This document shows positions 2,243 through 10,536 of a stretch of 24,919 nucleotides of DNA, in pieces. Numbering within the stretch: the first letter of the stretch is position 1; every line of letters starts with the position of its first letter. The notes under the pieces were generated by a model. That model saw nothing but the letters and a program-made list of their open reading frames with translations, did no database searches and was not told the DNA's origin. Source of the DNA: a virus; the IMG/VR virus record IMGVR_UViG_3300028025_003181, positions 1-24,919 of that record, one strand, 5' to 3'. Both the position numbers and the translations under genes were made by a program.

Positions 2243-2722
2243 TTATATCCTTGCAAAACTACCAAAATGTAATTTGGCAGCACTGATATATGCCAAATGA
2301 GCATTCTCAATTTTTTCGTGATAACCCAAAAATTTAAGTTTGTTGTTTACAGTAATGTAAGCCATCCACTTGTTTTTTCTTTTATCCCAACAAACACCTT
2401 TGAATCCACTTGTATTGTGTGATGGTGTTTTGCAATTTCTTGCGTTTTCGTTATGAGTAGCAGGACGCAAATTTTCAATTTTATTGTTTGACCTATTGCC
2501 ATCAATATGATCGATAAATTCAGAGCAATAGCCATGATGTAAAAGAAAAATAATTCTATGTGCAGGATGCGTTTCACCATCGATGCCAACCATTACATAA
2601 CCTTTATTAAGCCAACCAGCTTTATTTCCTTTTAATTTTCTGCCTAAAGTTTTTTTCCAATATAAAAATCCATCCTTGTATTCAAGGTTGTCTTGAATTT
2701 TTGGAAGCAAATAAGAAATCAT
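2243..2722 (-). CDS. HNH homing endonuclease with AP2-like DNA-binding domain, 159 aa
   Basis: N-terminal EYKDGFLYWKK is typical of phage HNH endonucleases. The HNH core reads HPAHRIIFLLHHGYC, then IDHIDGNRSNNKIENLRPAT, with the paired His residues and the DHIDG/NN/NLR pattern that binds the catalytic metal. The C-terminal part, SGFKGVCWDKRKNKWMAYI, is an AP2/ERF-like DNA-binding domain. Start set at ATG 2722 because GAGG is correctly spaced; earlier ATG/GTG codons to 2752 are possible. Such proteins nick or cut specific DNA sites and spread their own genes. It interrupts the junction between the 68-aa gene and rusA. Confidence 0.9.
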   Translation of the reverse strand: MISYLLPKIQDNLEYKDGFLYWKKTLGRKLKGNKAGWLNKGYVMVGIDGETHPAHRIIFLLHHGYCSEFIDHIDGNRSNNKIENLRPATHNENARNCKTPSHNTSGFKGVCWDKRKNKWMAYITVNNKLKFLGYHEKIENAHLAYISAAKLHFGSFARI

Positions 2723-2760
2723 GTCGCACCTCATCATTGGTGGAAGCATCACTAAAGAAT

Positions 2761-2820
2761 AACAGCAGGGCGGTGATGAATCGCCTTTTCCCCCGCTAAA
2801 GGTAGCTGTTAATAAATTAT
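2761..2820 (-). promoter_or_regulatory. Hairpin structure upstream of the HNH gene
   Basis: Two nested inverted repeats lie in the noncoding part of the HNH element. AACAGC (2761-2766) pairs with GCTGTT (2815-2820), enclosing GGCGGT (2769-2774) paired with ATCGCC (2780-2785) around a 5-nt loop (one G-U pair). In the HNH transcript this would form a folded leader about 40 nt before the start codon. Read on the plus strand, the inner hairpin is followed by four T residues, so it could also act as a weak plus-strand terminator. Phage homing-endonuclease genes are known to carry leader hairpins that limit translation; that role here is inference. Confidence 0.4.
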
Positions 2821-2834
2821 ATTCTTTTTAAATG

Positions 2835-3041
2835 TCATTTGTCAGCCTTTCTGAGATTGTTCATGCGCTGTCTCAAATCCAAAGTGTCGGACTCGCCTCT
2901 GATTCGTTCCAAGTCCCTTAACACACCCTGCCACCAGAGCAATGCTCTCTTTGAGCCAATCGTCAATGTCTTGGCTTGGTAGCGTCTGAGCCACTCCTTT
3001 GCTTCGCAGTTTTTGAAGTGCTCCAATTCGCTTGGTGTCAT
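2835..3041 (-). CDS. Conserved small phage protein, 68 aa
   Basis: The frame reading MTPSELEHFKNCEAKEWLRRYQ, then SKRALLWWQGVLRDLERIRG and LDLRQRMNNLRKADK is helical and basic. It strongly resembles a family of about 70-residue phage proteins common in betaproteobacterial phages (a WW/R-rich middle and an ERIRG..DLR.RMN end). Function unknown. The start is uncertain: ATG 3041 is preferred, but TTG 3056 in the same frame is possible and neither has a strong ribosome binding site. A competing frame (2842-3063, starting at an ATGA overlap) was rejected because this frame carries the family-like sequence. Its stop is part of the direct repeat framing the HNH element. Confidence 0.7.
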   Translation of the reverse strand: MTPSELEHFKNCEAKEWLRRYQAKTLTIGSKRALLWWQGVLRDLERIRGESDTLDLRQRMNNLRKADK

Positions 3042-3059
3042 TTGTTGGCCAATCAAAAT

Positions 3060-3455
3060 TCATTTTCGGAGCATTGCCATCTTTGCTTTGATGTGTTCGG
3101 GAATCGGTGCAGCCTTTTTGCTGTCTTGCTCGATCTTGACAAGTGCAGGGTCTTTTAAGGTCTTTGGCTTGATCTCTGGAATCTCAGCCCCATCCCATCG
3201 CTGTTGATTCAAATAGACCTTGGGTGCGGGTATGAATGCCCCATTGTCCTGAAGCCACTGAGCAGTGGTGGCCATCCATTGAATGTGTTTGAGGATGATG
3301 TGCTTTTGACTGAAATAATAGGACTCGACCCATTTTTTCTTGCAAGCAGACTTTTCACCTTTTCGGACACATTTTGGATAAGCGATCCAGAATTCCTCAA
3401 AACCCTCGTCTGTCAGTGAAGTTGCTTTTGGTTGTTCATACCCAAATAAGTCCAT
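3060..3455 (-). CDS. Replication-protein-like phage protein (O/DnaT-like C-terminal region), 131 aa
   Basis: The protein contains FEEFWIAYPKCVRKGEKSACKKKW, then AQWLQDNGAFIPAPKVYLNQQRWDG. The pattern F..FW..YP...K..A...W followed by G.FIP.P..YLN...W is characteristic of the C-terminal part of many phage replication initiator or helicase-loader proteins (lambda O and related replisome organisers). The usual N-terminal winged-helix DNA-binding domain is missing, so this is a short, stand-alone version. The separate winged-helix-like protein at 3919-4278 might supply the DNA-binding part (inference). Start at ATG 3455 has AAGGA-type purines upstream. It is the first gene downstream of the structured 3456-3918 stretch. 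Confidence 0.7.
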   Translation of the reverse strand: MDLFGYEQPKATSLTDEGFEEFWIAYPKCVRKGEKSACKKKWVESYYFSQKHIILKHIQWMATTAQWLQDNGAFIPAPKVYLNQQRWDGAEIPEIKPKTLKDPALVKIEQDSKKAAPIPEHIKAKMAMLRK

Positions 3456-3718
3456 TCTCTTTTCCTTTAGCCATAGTTTCTCCAAGGGTGGATAGATGGC
3501 TGTTTCTATCCTGACCTCTCCAGACTTTTAATGATGTATTACCTAAAAAGTCCCAAGTGCGCTTGACGGGTTAATTCGCTTATACATTTGGCCTTGTTAC
3601 CACCGATGAACCAAATGCTTTACCAGTCGCTCAACCAACGCTGGTCGCCTTTTGCTCTGGGGTGTACAGAGTGCGGTGTTTTCTTCCAAGCCATCCATGC
3701 AAATGCGCTGCTATCGTG

Positions 3719-3734
3719 TGGAGTACGGACTCCA
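3719..3734. repeat. Perfect 6-bp hairpin with ACGG loop
   Basis: TGGAGT, a 4-base loop ACGG, then ACTCCA. It lies nine bases from the large inverted repeat and forms the left edge of the structured part of the gene-free region. No T-run follows on either strand, so it is not a simple terminator. Confidence 0.6.
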
Positions 3735-3742
3735 AAAGCAAA

Positions 3743-3858
3743 AACCCCTCAAATAACTCTGGTGGTCTTGGCTCTTGGCGAGAGCAACAGCAAACGAATG
3801 ACGCTAATCAAAAGTTCACTTGCCGTCTGACAAGACCGCCACAGGTATCTGAGGGGTT
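3743..3858. repeat. Imperfect 28-nt inverted repeat with structured 60-nt loop
   Basis: Arms 3743-3770 and 3831-3858 are complementary at 24 of 28 positions (ends AACCCCTCA and TGAGGGGTT; inner ends GGTCTTG and CAAGACC). The loop contains a 5-bp hairpin (3771-3785) and the TGACGCTAAT half of a further pairing with 3864-3873 outside the stem, which would make a pseudoknot or an alternative fold. On the minus strand the second arm ends in GAGGGGTTTTTGCTTTT, i.e. a GC stem followed by T residues, so one possible role is intrinsic termination or attenuation of the leftward operon. Confidence 0.6.
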
Positions 3859-3875
3859 CTTTAATTAGCGTCAAT

Positions 3876-3895
3876 CGTCTGATGCCACTCAGACG
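3876..3895. repeat. Perfect 7-bp hairpin (CGTCTGA/TCAGACG)
   Basis: CGTCTGA, loop TGCCAC, TCAGACG, starting 23 bases before the stop codon of the minus-strand gene at 3919. A second copy of CGTCTGA lies at 3824-3830 in the loop of the large inverted repeat, so TCAGACG could pair with either copy. AGCGTC (3867-3872) can also pair with GACGCT (3892-3897). This looks like a set of mutually exclusive folds. Confidence 0.55.
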
Positions 3896-3918
3896 CTTTG
3901 ATTATAAGCATACTTTTT

Positions 3919-4278
3919 TTATTCTTGCAAGAATTTGCGTTTGTCACCAAATCTTGATGGATATTTAAGGAAATCATAAGCCCCCCTCCTCGAAACCCGA
4001 GACTTAAGTTCATCGCCCTCATAGATGCCAACTCCCACCCATGATGGGGCTTTGACCTTTACCCTGCTGTCATGGATTGCCTCTCGGCCACTCTGGGTCA
4101 AGTGCCATTCCTCACCGATCTCGACCACCAGCCCGAGCCTCTGCATATCGTCCAAATATCGGACAAAGTGAACCGATAACTGAGAATTCACAGTGTCCAT
4201 GTTGGTGAATGATCTGCTTGTTCTACCGCCTCCAGCCAAGCGAACAAGAAGGGTTTTGTGGCCATGTGAGAGTTTCAT
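3919..4278 (-). CDS. Winged-helix-like conserved phage protein, 119 aa
   Basis: The first 70 residues read as a winged helix: LLVRLAGGGRTSRSF, HFVRYLDDMQRLGLVVEIGEEWHLTQSGREAI, i.e. a recognition-helix-like segment followed by a two-strand wing (LVVEIGEEWHLT). The C-terminal half carries VGIYEGDELK...RRGAYDFLKYPSRFGD, a motif I associate with phage hypothetical proteins of betaproteobacterial phages (GAYD..PSR.GD). DNA binding is inferred from the fold pattern; the operon position upstream of a replication-like protein lacking its own DNA-binding domain suggests a role in replication or regulation. ATGA overlap with the upstream gene supports the start at 4278. Confidence 0.7.
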   Translation of the reverse strand: MKLSHGHKTLLVRLAGGGRTSRSFTNMDTVNSQLSVHFVRYLDDMQRLGLVVEIGEEWHLTQSGREAIHDSRVKVKAPSWVGVGIYEGDELKSRVSRRGAYDFLKYPSRFGDKRKFLQE

Positions 4279-4472
4279 TTTTTGTTTGCGATAAAGGTTT
4301 TAGAGATAAATTCTTTTTGGCAGCGTGACTGGATCACCATTTGAGCCTCGTAAAGAGTAGAACAGTCAGAGCAGGGTGAGCAGACCTCTTTTGAGACTTT
4401 TGCCCAATATTGCCACTCCAGAAAGATTTTCCTATCTGGAAAGCAGTGAGGATAGAACTTTTCATGGAACAT
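4275..4472 (-). CDS. Cys-rich small phage protein, first gene of the leftward operon, 65 aa
   Basis: A 65-residue basic/aromatic protein with CSPCSDCSTLYEAQMVIQSRC (Cys31, 34 and 37 then Cys49), a likely zinc knuckle. PC.DC...YEA.M...RC is a pattern I recall from short phage proteins of unknown function, usually near replication or regulatory genes. The start at ATG 4472 has no good ribosome binding site, so a leader or leaderless start is possible. The stop overlaps the next gene by ATGA. It faces the divergent plus-strand operon across a 116-bp AT-rich region that must contain both promoters. Confidence 0.65.
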   Translation of the reverse strand: MFHEKFYPHCFPDRKIFLEWQYWAKVSKEVCSPCSDCSTLYEAQMVIQSRCQKEFISKTFIANKK

Positions 4473-4588
4473 TTGCCATTGTTGCTTTTTTTTAACAATT
4501 TTGCAGATATTTATCTAATTCTTTGAAAAAGTGTGTGTAAAATCATTTATGCGCTGAAATCACTCAGCCATAACAAGGAGAACTGCAA
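4473..4588. promoter_or_regulatory. Divergent promoter region between early operons
   Basis: This 116-bp AT-rich stretch separates the divergent starts 4472 (minus) and 4589 (plus), so promoters for both operons belong here. On the minus strand, TTTACA (4537-4542) is followed 17 bases later by the weak -10-like TTAGAT. On the plus strand, TTGAAA (4523-4528) precedes weak -10-like sequences (TAAAAT at 4538, TTTATG at 4546) at imperfect spacing. None is a strong sigma-70 match, so exact promoter positions are unsure. AAGGAG eight bases before ATG 4589 is a clear ribosome binding site. Confidence 0.5.
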
Positions 4589-4783
4589 ATGAGAGTAATG
4601 CACTTAAACAAAGGTGGCCAAGGATGGGCAACAAAAACAGCCTGTGGTCGCAATATGCTTAGAACCCCAATGTCAGTCAATTGGGATGACTTCAAAAAAG
4701 AACCCATCGAATACTGTTGCATCAAATGTTTGTCCAGCAAGCAATTTGAATTCAACACTCGAATGGATCAAAAAAAATCTTAA
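4589..4783 (+). CDS. Small Cys-containing phage protein, 64 aa
   Basis: The sequence has KTACGRNMLRTPMSVNWDDFKKEP, then CCIKCLSSKQFEF. The order ACGR...TPMS..W..FK..P...CC.KC..SKQ is a recognisable small phage protein of unknown function; Cys19, Cys43-Cys44 and Cys47 could form a zinc site. It is the first gene of the rightward recombination operon, with a strong ribosome binding site (AAGGAG, eight bases). A UUCG-loop hairpin follows its stop codon. Confidence 0.75.
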   Translation: MRVMHLNKGGQGWATKTACGRNMLRTPMSVNWDDFKKEPIEYCCIKCLSSKQFEFNTRMDQKKS

Positions 4784-4788
4784 CCAAC

Positions 4789-4802
4789 AGGGCTTCGGCC
4801 CT
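4789..4802 (+). terminator. UUCG tetraloop hairpin between 64-aa and 52-aa genes
   Basis: AGGGC-TTCG-GCCCT forms a 5-bp GC-rich stem with the very stable C(UUCG)G tetraloop, followed only by TTC. The T-run is short and the downstream genes have no other visible promoter, so it is more likely a weak, partial terminator or an mRNA-stabilising/processing element than a full stop. Confidence 0.5.
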
Positions 4803-4808
4803 TTCAAC

Positions 4809-4827
4809 TGGAGAACTACATGAAAAC
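4809..4827 (+). repeat. 19-bp repeated translation-start module, copy 1
   Basis: TGGAGAACTACATGAAAAC covers the ribosome binding site (GGAG), spacer and first codons (M-K-T) of the 52-aa gene. An identical 19-bp copy is at 7125-7143 over the start of the 96-aa gene, and a close relative (AGGAGAACTGCAAATG) starts the 64-aa gene at 4589. Confidence 0.7.
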
Positions 4828-4978
4828 TCGCTTCCTTCGCCATGTGCGAAAAATTTTTGCCACTTATGACGCACCACCAGAAACGATCAGGTCTTATCAA
4901 AGACAGTGGGTCAGATCAGTGCGTCAACTTGGAGACAAGTGGCTGGTGGCTAAACAAATCAAAAGGATTGAACAATGA
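4820..4978 (+). CDS. Small basic protein, 52 aa
   Basis: The reading frame starts MKTRFLRHVRKIFATYD and continues with PPETIRSYQRQWVRSVRQLG and VAKQIKRIEQ. It is strongly basic (many Arg/Lys) and aromatic, with predicted helices and no Cys or membrane segment. It resembles short basic phage proteins of unknown function placed before recombinases; nucleic-acid binding is plausible but not shown. GGAG with a seven-base spacer precedes ATG 4820. Its stop overlaps the ERF gene start (ATGA at 4975), which argues strongly that it is translated. Confidence 0.75.
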   Translation: MKTRFLRHVRKIFATYDAPPETIRSYQRQWVRSVRQLGDKWLVAKQIKRIEQ

Positions 4979-5580
4979 AAGTTTATCAAGCGATCAATTT
5001 GATCCAAGCCGACCTTGCGAAAACTGGCATCGAGAAAAATCGCAAAAATCATCAAGGCTCTGGATATAACTTCCGAGGCATCGATGATGTTTATAACGCA
5101 CTCGCTCCATTGCTGGCCACACACAATCTTTGTGTTTTGCCAAGAATGCTGACCAGAAACTGTGATGAAAGAATCTCCAAATCTGGTGGCAGTTTGTTTT
5201 ATGTGACCATCGAGGCTGAGTTTGACTTTGTGAGTTCTGAGGATGGATCAAAACACACTGTAAAGACTTATGGTGAAGCAATGGACTCTGGAGACAAAGC
5301 AACAAGCAAAGCAATGTCAGCCGCTTATAAATACGCTGCATTCATGGCATTTGCAATTCCAACTGAGGGAGACAATGATCCAGACGCTGAAAGCCATGAG
5401 GTTATTCCTGAAGGAAAAGAGCCTGTAAAAGAAAAAGTCGCACCACCAATCACAGACGCTCGATTGTTAAAAGCAATTGAAAAGATCAAGTCTGGTGAAT
5501 ACACCACAGACAAACTCAGGGCTTCATTCACTTTGACAGAAAAACAAAAAGCATCACTGTTGGAGGCATTGTCAGCATGA
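4975..5580 (+). CDS. erf: ERF-family single-strand DNA annealing protein, 201 aa
   Basis: The ERF superfamily signature is clear: GYNFRGIDDVYNALAPLLA (residues 30-48) and GEAMDSGDKATSKAMSAAY followed by KYA...F.IPTEGDND (about 101-135). ERF proteins are ring-forming recombinases that anneal complementary single strands in phage recombination, equivalent to lambda Bet. The C-terminal part (about 140-201) is a charged linker and a helical tail, as usual. AAAGGA supplies the ribosome binding site and the start overlaps the upstream gene. The exonuclease and SSB encoded downstream are its expected partners. Confidence 0.95.
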   Translation: MKVYQAINLIQADLAKTGIEKNRKNHQGSGYNFRGIDDVYNALAPLLATHNLCVLPRMLTRNCDERISKSGGSLFYVTIEAEFDFVSSEDGSKHTVKTYGEAMDSGDKATSKAMSAAYKYAAFMAFAIPTEGDNDPDAESHEVIPEGKEPVKEKVAPPITDARLLKAIEKIKSGEYTTDKLRASFTLTEKQKASLLEALSA

Positions 5581-6077
5581 GAAAGCATTACCAACTACCA
5601 CCTCAGCTTGGCTCATTTGCCGTGACAAAATTTAATCGAGCCAAAGAAGTCGCATTAAAAGCCAAAAAAGATTTTTTAGCTAAAGAAGGTGCAGTTGCCA
5701 TACTTCGACAAGAGTACAAAGGAATCGGGTTAATTTATGAGGAATATAGAGACAGATCAGGCTTTTGTTTGCCAGAAAAGTATGAACAATATTGGTTAAT
5801 AAAACCAAAAAAATCGACATTAGTTGGCAAACGAATACAAGGTGAAATGGATCATGTCTGCGAATTGCTTGAGGTCTGGCAGTGGTCACTTGAAAACGCT
5901 CTGAACCTTTATGAGTCGGTCTTTGCTAATCGTCAGTTTGAGTTAACTTTTTGTGTGCCAATGGCCGATGGAAGTGTTCTTATTAGTCAATCCAGAGAAG
6001 CCAAAAAACTGATTTCTGAGGACTACAAAATCACTGCATCAGAGTTTTTGCGTTTGAAAGGATTGGCCAATGATTAA
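5577..6077 (+). CDS. Unknown protein of the recombination operon, 166 aa
   Basis: I do not recognise this protein. It is soluble-looking with a basic N-terminal third (KAKKDFLAKEGAV), a middle with YEEYRDRSGFCLPEKYEQYW and a helical segment MDHVCELLEVWQWSLENALNLYE. No catalytic motif, membrane segment or clear zinc site is visible. It overlaps erf (ATGA at 5577, GGAGG upstream) and the exonuclease gene (8 bp), so it is co-translated with the recombination proteins. Possible roles are accessory DNA binding or nuclease modulation, but the sequence alone does not decide. Confidence 0.8.
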   Translation: MRKHYQLPPQLGSFAVTKFNRAKEVALKAKKDFLAKEGAVAILRQEYKGIGLIYEEYRDRSGFCLPEKYEQYWLIKPKKSTLVGKRIQGEMDHVCELLEVWQWSLENALNLYESVFANRQFELTFCVPMADGSVLISQSREAKKLISEDYKITASEFLRLKGLAND

Positions 6078-6705
6078 GATCAGAGCATCAAGCCTGTCTC
6101 AGATAATGACCGACCCAAAAGGCAAGGGTGAGGTCTTGTCTGTCGGTGCAAAGACCTATATAAGAAAACAAGCAATTGAATTTGTTTATGGCTTCGATGA
6201 AAAGATTTCCTCAAAGTACATGGACAAAGGAATCCAAGTCGAGGATCAGTCAATTGAACTTCTCAACTCGGTTTTGTTCACCAGTTACCAAAAGAACATC
6301 GAGCGAAAGGACAATGACTGGATCACTGGTGAGTGCGACATATTCACTGGAGACTCAATCATTGACATCAAGTCCTCATGGTCGCTGACCACCTTTCCAG
6401 CCTTGGCCGAGCAGGGTGAAGACAAAGATTATGAGTGGCAACTAAGGGCTTATATGTGGCTCTGGAATGTTGACAAAGCCTCGATTGCATATTGCCTTGT
6501 CTCGACCCCAGAGGACTTGATTAAGTATGAGGACGCAAGCCTTCACCAAGTCGATCACATCGCGCCTGAACTCAGAGTCACCCGAGTCTTTTATGAGAGG
6601 GATAAAACCCTTGAGGACAAGATCAAAGTGAAGGTGGAAGCCTCCCGAGAATATTACCAACAAATCATCAACCAAATCGCTAAAGAGCATCAAGGAGAAA
6701 ATTAA
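6070..6705 (+). CDS. PD-(D/E)XK exonuclease (YqaJ/lambda-Exo type), 211 aa
   Basis: The nuclease core is visible: RASSLSQIM at the N-terminus (typical of these exonucleases), KGIQVE (residues 53-58, helix with Glu58), TGECDIF with Asp90, IIDIKSSW with Asp99 and Lys101 as the D-x-K catalytic pair, and EWQLRAYMWLW (122-132) as the Q-x-x-x-Y motif. This is the two-metal exonuclease fold used to chew DNA 5' to 3' and supply single strands to the annealing protein, here ERF. Size is normal. AAAGGA upstream and an 8-bp overlap with the previous gene support the start. Confidence 0.87.
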   Translation: MIKIRASSLSQIMTDPKGKGEVLSVGAKTYIRKQAIEFVYGFDEKISSKYMDKGIQVEDQSIELLNSVLFTSYQKNIERKDNDWITGECDIFTGDSIIDIKSSWSLTTFPALAEQGEDKDYEWQLRAYMWLWNVDKASIAYCLVSTPEDLIKYEDASLHQVDHIAPELRVTRVFYERDKTLEDKIKVKVEASREYYQQIINQIAKEHQGEN

Positions 6706-9557: not shown

Positions 9558-10051
9558 CGACCACACCTTTTGGTGGTTTCACAAAAATCCATCAATTCAT
9601 AGATTCCAATTGCAACCAAAAACAAAACAAAAGCCACGCCACCAATAATGATGGCCAACTCATTCATCTCTTGTTCTTTTTGTTTAGCCTTTTTCTCTGC
9701 CTTCTCTAAAGACCTCAGTTCCCTTGCGTCATCGATGTCCATCTGGTCTTGACGCGCTTTAATCTTGTTCCAGACATCAACCTTGCCAGTTGTCATAAAG
9801 AGCATCTTGAGTTCTTCCTCAAACGCTCTGGCTTGCTCTAAGGCCATCTCAATCTGGAGAGCAGTCCCCATGTTTGAGCCTTTGCCCTTCTTTGCCTCAA
9901 TCAGTGCTTTAGTAGCAGTTGACTTGGCATCGAACATCTTACCGATCATCGGTGCAAGCGAGCCAAGATCGTTGGCCACCTTGCTGGCCTTCTTGACCAT
10001 GCTAATCGCGGATTGGATACCCGCTAGGGCTGTTAGCGGATCCACCATCAT
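9554..10051 (-). CDS. Helical protein with C-terminal membrane anchor, 165 aa
   Basis: The N-terminus is VDPLTALAGIQSAISMVKKA, followed by a long helical region (about residues 60-130) with RAFEEELKMLFMTTGKVDVW and a run of Lys/Glu (KAEKKAKQKEQEMNE). A single membrane helix lies near 132-152 (IIIGGVAFVLFLVAIGIYELM) with a short Cys-containing tail. Phages of aquatic bacteria often carry a similar DPLTA...I-rich, coiled-coil protein with a C-terminal anchor beside lysis or internal virion genes; its role is not established. Preceded by AGAGG; the ATG doublet at 10051/10048 leaves the exact start open by one codon. It lies directly after the second HNH gene. Confidence 0.75.
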   Translation of the reverse strand: MMVDPLTALAGIQSAISMVKKASKVANDLGSLAPMIGKMFDAKSTATKALIEAKKGKGSNMGTALQIEMALEQARAFEEELKMLFMTTGKVDVWNKIKARQDQMDIDDARELRSLEKAEKKAKQKEQEMNELAIIIGGVAFVLFLVAIGIYELMDFCETTKRCGR

Positions 10052-10536
10052 GCAACCTCTGGTAGGTTGTAATACTGAGCTTCGCCAGCTTTTCTAGCCA
10101 CTACAGCATCATCTAAATTTTTGTAACACCCAAGCCATTTGTTTTTCTTATTAACTTTGACGTAAACTGTCCAAGATTTTTCCTTCTTAAACCATGAAAC
10201 ACCTATATGTCCACTTTTGTTGTGTCTAGGTAGTGAAATGTTTTGACAGTTGTCAGTTCGGCTAACAGCGCGTAGATTGCACAGCCTGTTGTCATTGCGA
10301 ATTCTGTTTTTATGGTCAATCTCTTGTGATGGAAAATTTCCATTGACATAAAGCCAAATTATTCTATGAACAGGATAACTTTTGTTTTGAATTTTTACTG
10401 TGAAGTATCCATTGCCATTTAATGCTTTTGCTTGTTGCCAAGGCTTAACATTTCGCCCATTGCCATTACGCCAAATAAGCATTCCGCTTGCAGCATCGTA
10501 GTAAAACAGCTTTTTGACTAATTCTTGATCAATCAT
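10048..10536 (-). CDS. Second HNH endonuclease with AP2-like domain, 162 aa
   Basis: FYYDAASGMLIWRNGNGRN at the N-terminus, then YPVHRIIWLYVNGNFPSQEIDHKNRIRND with NRLCNLRAVSRTDNCQN, give the HNH core (paired His with DH..N and NLR). The C-terminal SGHIGVSWFKKEKSWTVYVKV is an AP2-like DNA-binding domain. It has the same domain plan as the HNH at 2243-2722, but the two differ at most positions, so they are separate acquisitions rather than a recent duplicate. It sits exactly at an ATGA junction between two lysis-region genes, sharing overlaps on both sides, as expected of a freestanding homing-type gene. Confidence 0.9.
   Translation of the reverse strand: MIDQELVKKLFYYDAASGMLIWRNGNGRNVKPWQQAKALNGNGYFTVKIQNKSYPVHRIIWLYVNGNFPSQEIDHKNRIRNDNRLCNLRAVSRTDNCQNISLPRHNKSGHIGVSWFKKEKSWTVYVKVNKKNKWLGCYKNLDDAVVARKAGEAQYYNLPEVA

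Follow-up and report, generated by a model that had tools for sequence, protein, structure and literature searches.

The window analysed here, a freshwater phage record of 24,919 bases, carries a gap of 463 nt, given a rep start at the ATG at 3455. The gap lies between rep and a gene encoding a 119-aa protein. Comparison with related viral loci indicates that M1 is a real minus-strand phage RNA of about 156 nt, running from about 3895 to 3740. M1 looks like a unit with start and stop signals of its own, a promoter and a terminator predicted from sequence. Three features go beyond the first-pass annotation of this DNA: the promoter, a second conserved RNA (3729-3461) and a Rep protein without an N-terminal domain (Table 1).

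Table 1. Features in and around the gap, with the evidence or observations that bear on each.
Feature	Position	Strand	Evidence
M1, pseudoknotted RNA of ~156 nt ending in an intrinsic-terminator-like stem and U-tract	3740..3895	-	relatives in at least 187 viral loci
5' hairpin CGTCT-GAGTGGCATC-AGACG, loop GTGGCA invariant	3876..3895	-	99.1% of cells paired, double changes at 3/5 pairs
Pseudoknot helix (variable), 5' strand (TGACGCTAAT)	3864..3873	-	partner-swap test, covariation
Pseudoknot helix, 3' strand (ATTAGCGTCA), within the loop of inner hairpin P3	3799..3808	-	same tests as 5' strand
Closing stem P1 (terminator stem), 5' arm	3831..3858	-	folding energy, covariation
Closing stem P1, 3' arm; U-tract 3744-3740 after GGGG	3743..3770	-	folding energy, covariation
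Inner hairpin P3 (ACGGCAAG / TTTGCTGT)	3787..3826	-	double changes at 6/8 pairs, 94.8% paired
Inner hairpin P2 (GCTCT-CGCCA-AGAGC)	3771..3785	-	98.2% of cells paired, mostly invariant
Predicted sigma70-type promoter, TTGCAA - 18 nt - TATAAT; expected transcription start ~3895	3901..3930	-	promoter scan
M2a, second structured RNA	3461..3729	-	at least 192 loci, covarying helices
rep, 131 aa, C-terminal part only of phage replication initiation / primosomal proteins	3060..3455	-	phrog profiles
119-aa neighbour gene, weak winged-helix match	3919..4278	-	present with and without the RNA

The first-pass annotation had listed a set of pairings in this region, and each was found where it had been placed. 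Of the 28 positions in the arms at 3743-3770 and 3831-3858, 24 are complementary, and a repeat finder lengthened the arms to 31 nt at 84%. The GCTCTTGGCGAGAGC hairpin lies at 3771-3785, TGACGCTAAT (3799-3808) and ATTAGCGTCA (3864-3873) are perfect complements, and CGTCTGA occurs at 3824-3830 and 3876-3882, with TCAGACG at 3889-3895. Folding of both strands, a check that the annotation had called for, gave z -5.5 for the minus and z -4.6 for the plus strand over 3690-3920; the inverted-repeat arms account for the good fold of the plus strand as well. For 3735-3865 on the minus strand the folding energy is -60.6 kcal/mol, against -32.1 +/- 3.7 in 200 shuffles (z -7.6, none equally good).

Relatives were gathered from IMG/VR with the two flanking proteins as baits, which gave 121 loci. 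DNA similarity showed that the gap is kept in most of these, as two separable pieces, and two pattern scans for the pieces reached at least 345 loci in total. In 67 aligned M1 sequences a 51-pair structure has 96.5% of its cells paired and double-sided changes at 29 pairs, compared with 17.8 in shuffles (reached by 0/500), and this support collapses once partners are slid. Support from the relatives extends to the long stem, to both the 5' and the inner hairpins, and to the TGACGCTAAT pairing. Compensatory changes, whose absence would have spoken against a functional structure, are plentiful, and no relative has a decayed gene or insertion remnant at that place. The structured RNA first suspected here is thus borne out, both by a fold far beyond chance and by covariation.

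The variable helix is especially informative. Among 78 unique cases it averages 9.6 bp when both strands come from the same phage versus 4.9 bp when partners are swapped across phages; it takes 59 distinct sequences, and double changes occur at 8/10 pairs. From this comparative evidence we conclude that TGACGCTAAT and ATTAGCGTCA form a true pseudoknot, the strongest part of the M1 structure. The 10-bp helix crosses the long stem, as the suggestion of a pseudoknot implied, and the two are not the mutually exclusive alternatives that had also been proposed. The idea of a switch between competing folds did not hold up. For the second CGTCTGA / TCAGACG pairing, the percentage of paired cells was reached by 74/500 shuffles and the number of double changes by 310/500; because this alternative is not conserved, we see no two-state switch in M1, and the pseudoknot and the terminator stem have no base in common. 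No conserved antiterminator competing with the M1 terminator was found, the proposed CGTCTGA alternative having been tested and others searched less than exhaustively. Copies of the pseudoknot strands elsewhere in the same contigs are in no clear excess (67 vs 55 +/- 7). We do not claim that the pseudoknot evolves faster than synonymous sites, since M1 and rep appear to recombine.

Wobble pairs and the promoter settle the direction. On the minus strand, G-U outnumbers A-C by 63:2 in the 5' hairpin, 121:1 in P1 and 94:14 in P3, as expected of an RNA of that strand; the pseudoknot helix (8:14) is uninformative in this respect. An exact TATAAT precedes M1 in 86 of 119 unique M1a contexts, compared with 1.4 in shuffles, and in 100 contexts the -10 element starts 12 nt ahead of the 5' hairpin. 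A -35 element with at least 5/6 matches occurs in 25 contexts vs 2.2 in shuffles; that of the window is a weak match. A general promoter scan of 2700-5000 reported no plus-strand promoter-like site. At the other end, aligned M1 relatives have GGG and then a T-run where the closing stem finishes. The terminator-like end suggested for the minus strand is supported, with the closing stem running into the U-tract.

None of the 4227 Rfam models matched the region or 18 related loci at gathering score, in agreement with the first reading that no named family fits, and at permissive thresholds the best matches fell far under the families' gathering scores. A search for the 22-nt M1 core in 84,980 species genomes, aimed at prophages and hosts, gave nine matches, none of them a true M1 by profile. 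Among GenBank phages only MW202484 matched, and it carries M2a; plasmids gave no match. No description of an M1 RNA was found in the open-access literature.

The gene adjoining the unit is indeed a replication gene, as had been proposed. The window's Rep matches residues 168-252 of 383 in phrog_270, 171-251 of 288 in phrog_9474 and 168-247 of 276 in phrog_9327, and has no Pfam match. It consists of the C-terminal domain only; the N-terminal DUF1376-type or other DNA-binding domain is missing, and no DUF1376 was found in the other early window ORFs tested. Among 282 ORFs with the rep C domain from RNA-, rep- and neighbour-baited loci, none has 70 or more extra N-terminal residues. The phrog_9327 profile spans both halves: its N-terminal half matches the full-length proteins of three loci (L007, L011, L021) and its C-terminal half the window's rep. 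DUF1376, which is formally of unknown function in Pfam, is the N-terminal domain in five of seven full-length proteins tested. One ORF (L396) joins DUF1376 to the rep C-domain profile, in a locus without the RNA. Some C-domains of sister phages are too diverged for pairwise BLASTP. The C-terminal tail of rep (~3060-3155, minus strand) has a motif like DPALxKIExDSKKAxPMPxxIR, common to short and full-length initiators that are otherwise unlike, and is perhaps a contact to a helicase or loader.

Other elements occur nearby. Downstream of rep, an Rfam int-alpA RNA match (RF02996, 40.1 bits; 2746-2812, minus strand) lies directly upstream of an HNH/AP2-domain ORF (2243-2752), and a second HNH_3 endonuclease ORF (10048-10536, minus strand) sits amid late genes. 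After the 119-aa gene in L011, L024, L037 and L041, and after M1 in L198, sequence around ACACGGCTAG is conserved over a short stretch that includes a hairpin and GAAAAG. The stretch, which lies upstream of full-length initiators in sister phages, is possibly a further structured leader RNA.

Behind M1 comes a second RNA, belonging to one of at least three unrelated families. The M2a profile begins 17-24 nt past the end of the M1 profile. After M1a, M2a stands at this fixed distance in at least 70 loci, and in other phages M2b (at least 82 loci) or M2c (at least 28) takes its place, with other sequences in the remainder. Helices in both M2a and M2b covary, and on the M1 strand their G-U pairs far outnumber A-C (e.g. 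96:0 in M2a, and 76:0). The space before M2 is too short for a promoter of its own, so that M2 is presumably transcribed by read-through of M1 or from an upstream promoter. The families have no recognisable sequence in common, so that a common mechanism across them is assumed. M2c (L118 3456-3800, L083, L075) is a third conserved element of ~300 nt behind M1a, without an Rfam match.

In M2b an 8-nt word is repeated ~72 nt on, right after the last conserved CACCA. The word is variable: in L068, L048, L065 and other M2b loci it follows GGCTCCG and returns as an exact direct repeat after CACCA. The two copies covary, with a mean common prefix of 7.7 vs 3.3 when swapped (48 unique pairs). A search for a complementary partner gave none that convinced (5-mers 343 vs 310 +/- 15, no covarying site). 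M1a, M2a and M2c showed no covarying direct repeats like those of M2b, the M2c set of 13 being too small to judge. In ColE1, according to Masukata and Tomizawa, an RNA segment reportedly must match a template-DNA segment near the origin; we treat the likeness of the M2b repeat to this matching as a lead. HNH-type ORFs are inserted between M2b and rep and start shortly after the repeated word (L035 ~4810-5145, L065 ~1080-1425).

Most loci in which M2a stands without M1a ahead of it carry a promoter-RNA-terminator element of another type (M1b/c). Its layout is the same: a 5' hairpin whose loop pairs with one strand in the terminator hairpin. The resulting helix measures 7 bp in 26 of 27 unique cases and has 10 different sequences; with partners swapped the mean is 5.3, a smaller contrast than in M1a. 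MW202484, a 41.8-kb podovirus from Manatee Spring, has the order rep, promoter with an M1b/c-type RNA, M2a. In that genome (L002), 5864-6223 (MW202484.1 33533-33892) is annotated in GenBank as a hypothetical protein, UOF77725.1, which overlaps M2a and is probably not a gene.

In two samples drawn with neighbouring genes as baits, phages that carry the RNA encode a short Rep, and phages with a longer initiator lack the RNA. The 119-aa neighbour served as a bait independent of the RNA and yielded 41 loci, 35 of them usable; the others are cut short or continue with a different gene. M1/M2 with a short rep was found in 11 of the 35, the protein being 104-133 aa where it is the next gene and lying behind an HNH ORF in L035. 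The other 24 have an N-domain initiator without the RNA, and there is no room for an RNA unit in them because the initiator starts 59-362 nt after the neighbour gene. In these sister phages the slot is taken by an initiator of 245-270 aa with DUF1376 or another N-domain, one of them cut by the contig end. A second sample of 80 loci, fetched with an ERF recombination protein, contained 8 with short rep and RNA, 45 with a full-length or DUF1376-type initiator and no RNA, and none with a full-length initiator and RNA. Over both samples, RNA loci have only a short rep (19/19 where a rep was found) and N-domain initiator loci lack the RNA (69/69); these counts are not independent events, as the loci are related and some contigs are in both samples. 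Two ERF loci gave a C-domain match and no detected RNA: in L406 only ~30 nt of contig follow rep, and a unit located downstream would have escaped notice; in L418 the match is weak. One locus (L378) has the RNA and no rep was found. Inheritance as a single gene block could account for part of the exclusion.

The unit stands ahead of rep in most loci and behind it in a few. A rep lies within 700 nt downstream in at least 155 M1a and at least 167 M2a loci. The unit is directly downstream of rep in at least seven M2a and at least two M1a cases (L094 in both), and rep is still C-terminal-only there. That a short rep accompanies the unit in either order speaks against a rep leader and for a self-contained element that goes with such a rep.

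The RNA fold, the promoter and terminator signals, the M1-M2 linkage, the C-terminal-only Rep and its mutual exclusion with full-length initiators in our samples, established by sequence comparison, frame our proposal. We infer from genome organisation a role in replication: the M1/M2 cassette may be an RNA-based replication element that replaces the N-terminal domain of the initiator, with the C-terminal Rep recruiting the helicase machinery. We consider this an even call. M1 would start at its own promoter near 3895, fold into the 5' hairpin and a closed pseudoknotted domain, and end near 3740. Together with the structured M2 just behind, it would stand in place of the N-terminal domain, which, from its position in the initiators, would be the origin-binding part (DUF1376 type). 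Transcription of M1/M2 would mark and open the origin and, as a further guess, perhaps supply a primer through an R-loop as with ColE1 RNA II, and the remaining C-terminal Rep domain would recruit host helicase machinery. Transcription of M2 would continue past the M1 terminator. This last step counts against the proposal, since the terminator-like stem of M1 means that M2 needs read-through or another transcript. More tentatively, and with less than even confidence, we suggest that a transcribed pseudoknotted cassette now does the work of the origin-binding domain, and that these are phages with RNA-defined origins built from interchangeable families (M1a, M1b/c; M2a, M2b, M2c).

Several other functions could be served by the same elements. 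M1 may be a stand-alone trans-acting small RNA, for instance one that binds a protein or acts as an antisense regulator, carried along with the replication module while M2 is a separate leader. This is possible but doubtful. M1 is a complete unit with promoter and terminator signals, families of M1 and of M2 are swapped independently of one another, and L137 has a small ORF between M1 and M2, all of which would suit such an RNA; it would leave unexplained why phages with C-terminal-only initiators alone carry M1 and why a structured M2 almost always accompanies M1, and the pseudoknot strands have no clear excess of copies elsewhere in the contigs. We regard it as unlikely that M1-M2 is a cis-acting attenuator and leader controlling transcription or translation of the operon behind it. 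The terminator-like end, with too little room for an M2 promoter in the 17-24 nt gap, means that downstream expression must pass a terminator, and rep is often close behind; yet the unit follows rep in several loci, the next gene varies (rep, HNH or another small ORF), a non-exhaustive search found no conserved antiterminator, and the missing initiator domain is not explained. That the element works through a fold in the DNA itself, as a hairpin origin or a site of packaging or recombination, is very unlikely: the hairpins adjoin a replication gene and the exact M2b repeat covaries between phages, but the promoter is conserved at a fixed spacing and the excess of G-U over A-C in P1, the 5' hairpin and M2a is strong on one strand. 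A decayed gene or insertion remnant without function can be dismissed almost entirely, as nothing was found in its favour beyond chance ORFs of 68-80 aa crossing the region, and compensatory change keeps the structure in 67 aligned relatives amid high nucleotide conservation across many phages.

The cassette proposal can be tested directly, since sister phages carry a protein version in the same slot. If the replacement is true, this would be a natural case in which the initiation of viral DNA replication relies on an RNA in place of a protein domain. The window leads to at least two undescribed structured RNA families, which are frequent among environmental viral contigs and not represented in Rfam.

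M1 and M2 have the ordinary attributes of structured bacterial RNAs in common with Rfam families, but match none at gathering score. ColE1 has no plasmid-encoded initiator, and its RNA II opens the origin and primes replication; the phage unit would resemble it in having a structured non-coding RNA and a predicted promoter that precedes the putative origin by a few hundred bases (PMC5043065). The window likewise has no recognised origin-binding initiator domain, an unrecognised initiator being possible. There are differences: M1 has a terminator-like stem after 156 nt and no Rfam match, no sign of an antisense RNA I was seen in a general promoter scan, the unit is found in phages, and a short initiator C-domain protein is still encoded. 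We know of no internal terminator like that of M1 in ColE1 RNA II. Lambda OOP, a short self-terminating phage RNA of 77 nt, lies beside replication genes and has a link to replication control (PMC3349717). It is antisense to cII, on the strand opposite cII-O, whereas M1 is on the same strand as rep, is twice as long and is pseudoknotted, and lambda keeps a complete O protein. We do not claim membership of M1/M2 in either class. The full-length DUF1376 initiators (PF07120; phrog_9327, phrog_270) occupy the same genomic slot, with the same neighbours, in sister phages and have a related C-terminal domain; in the window, Rep is without the N-terminal domain, and M1-M2 stands in the place before it.
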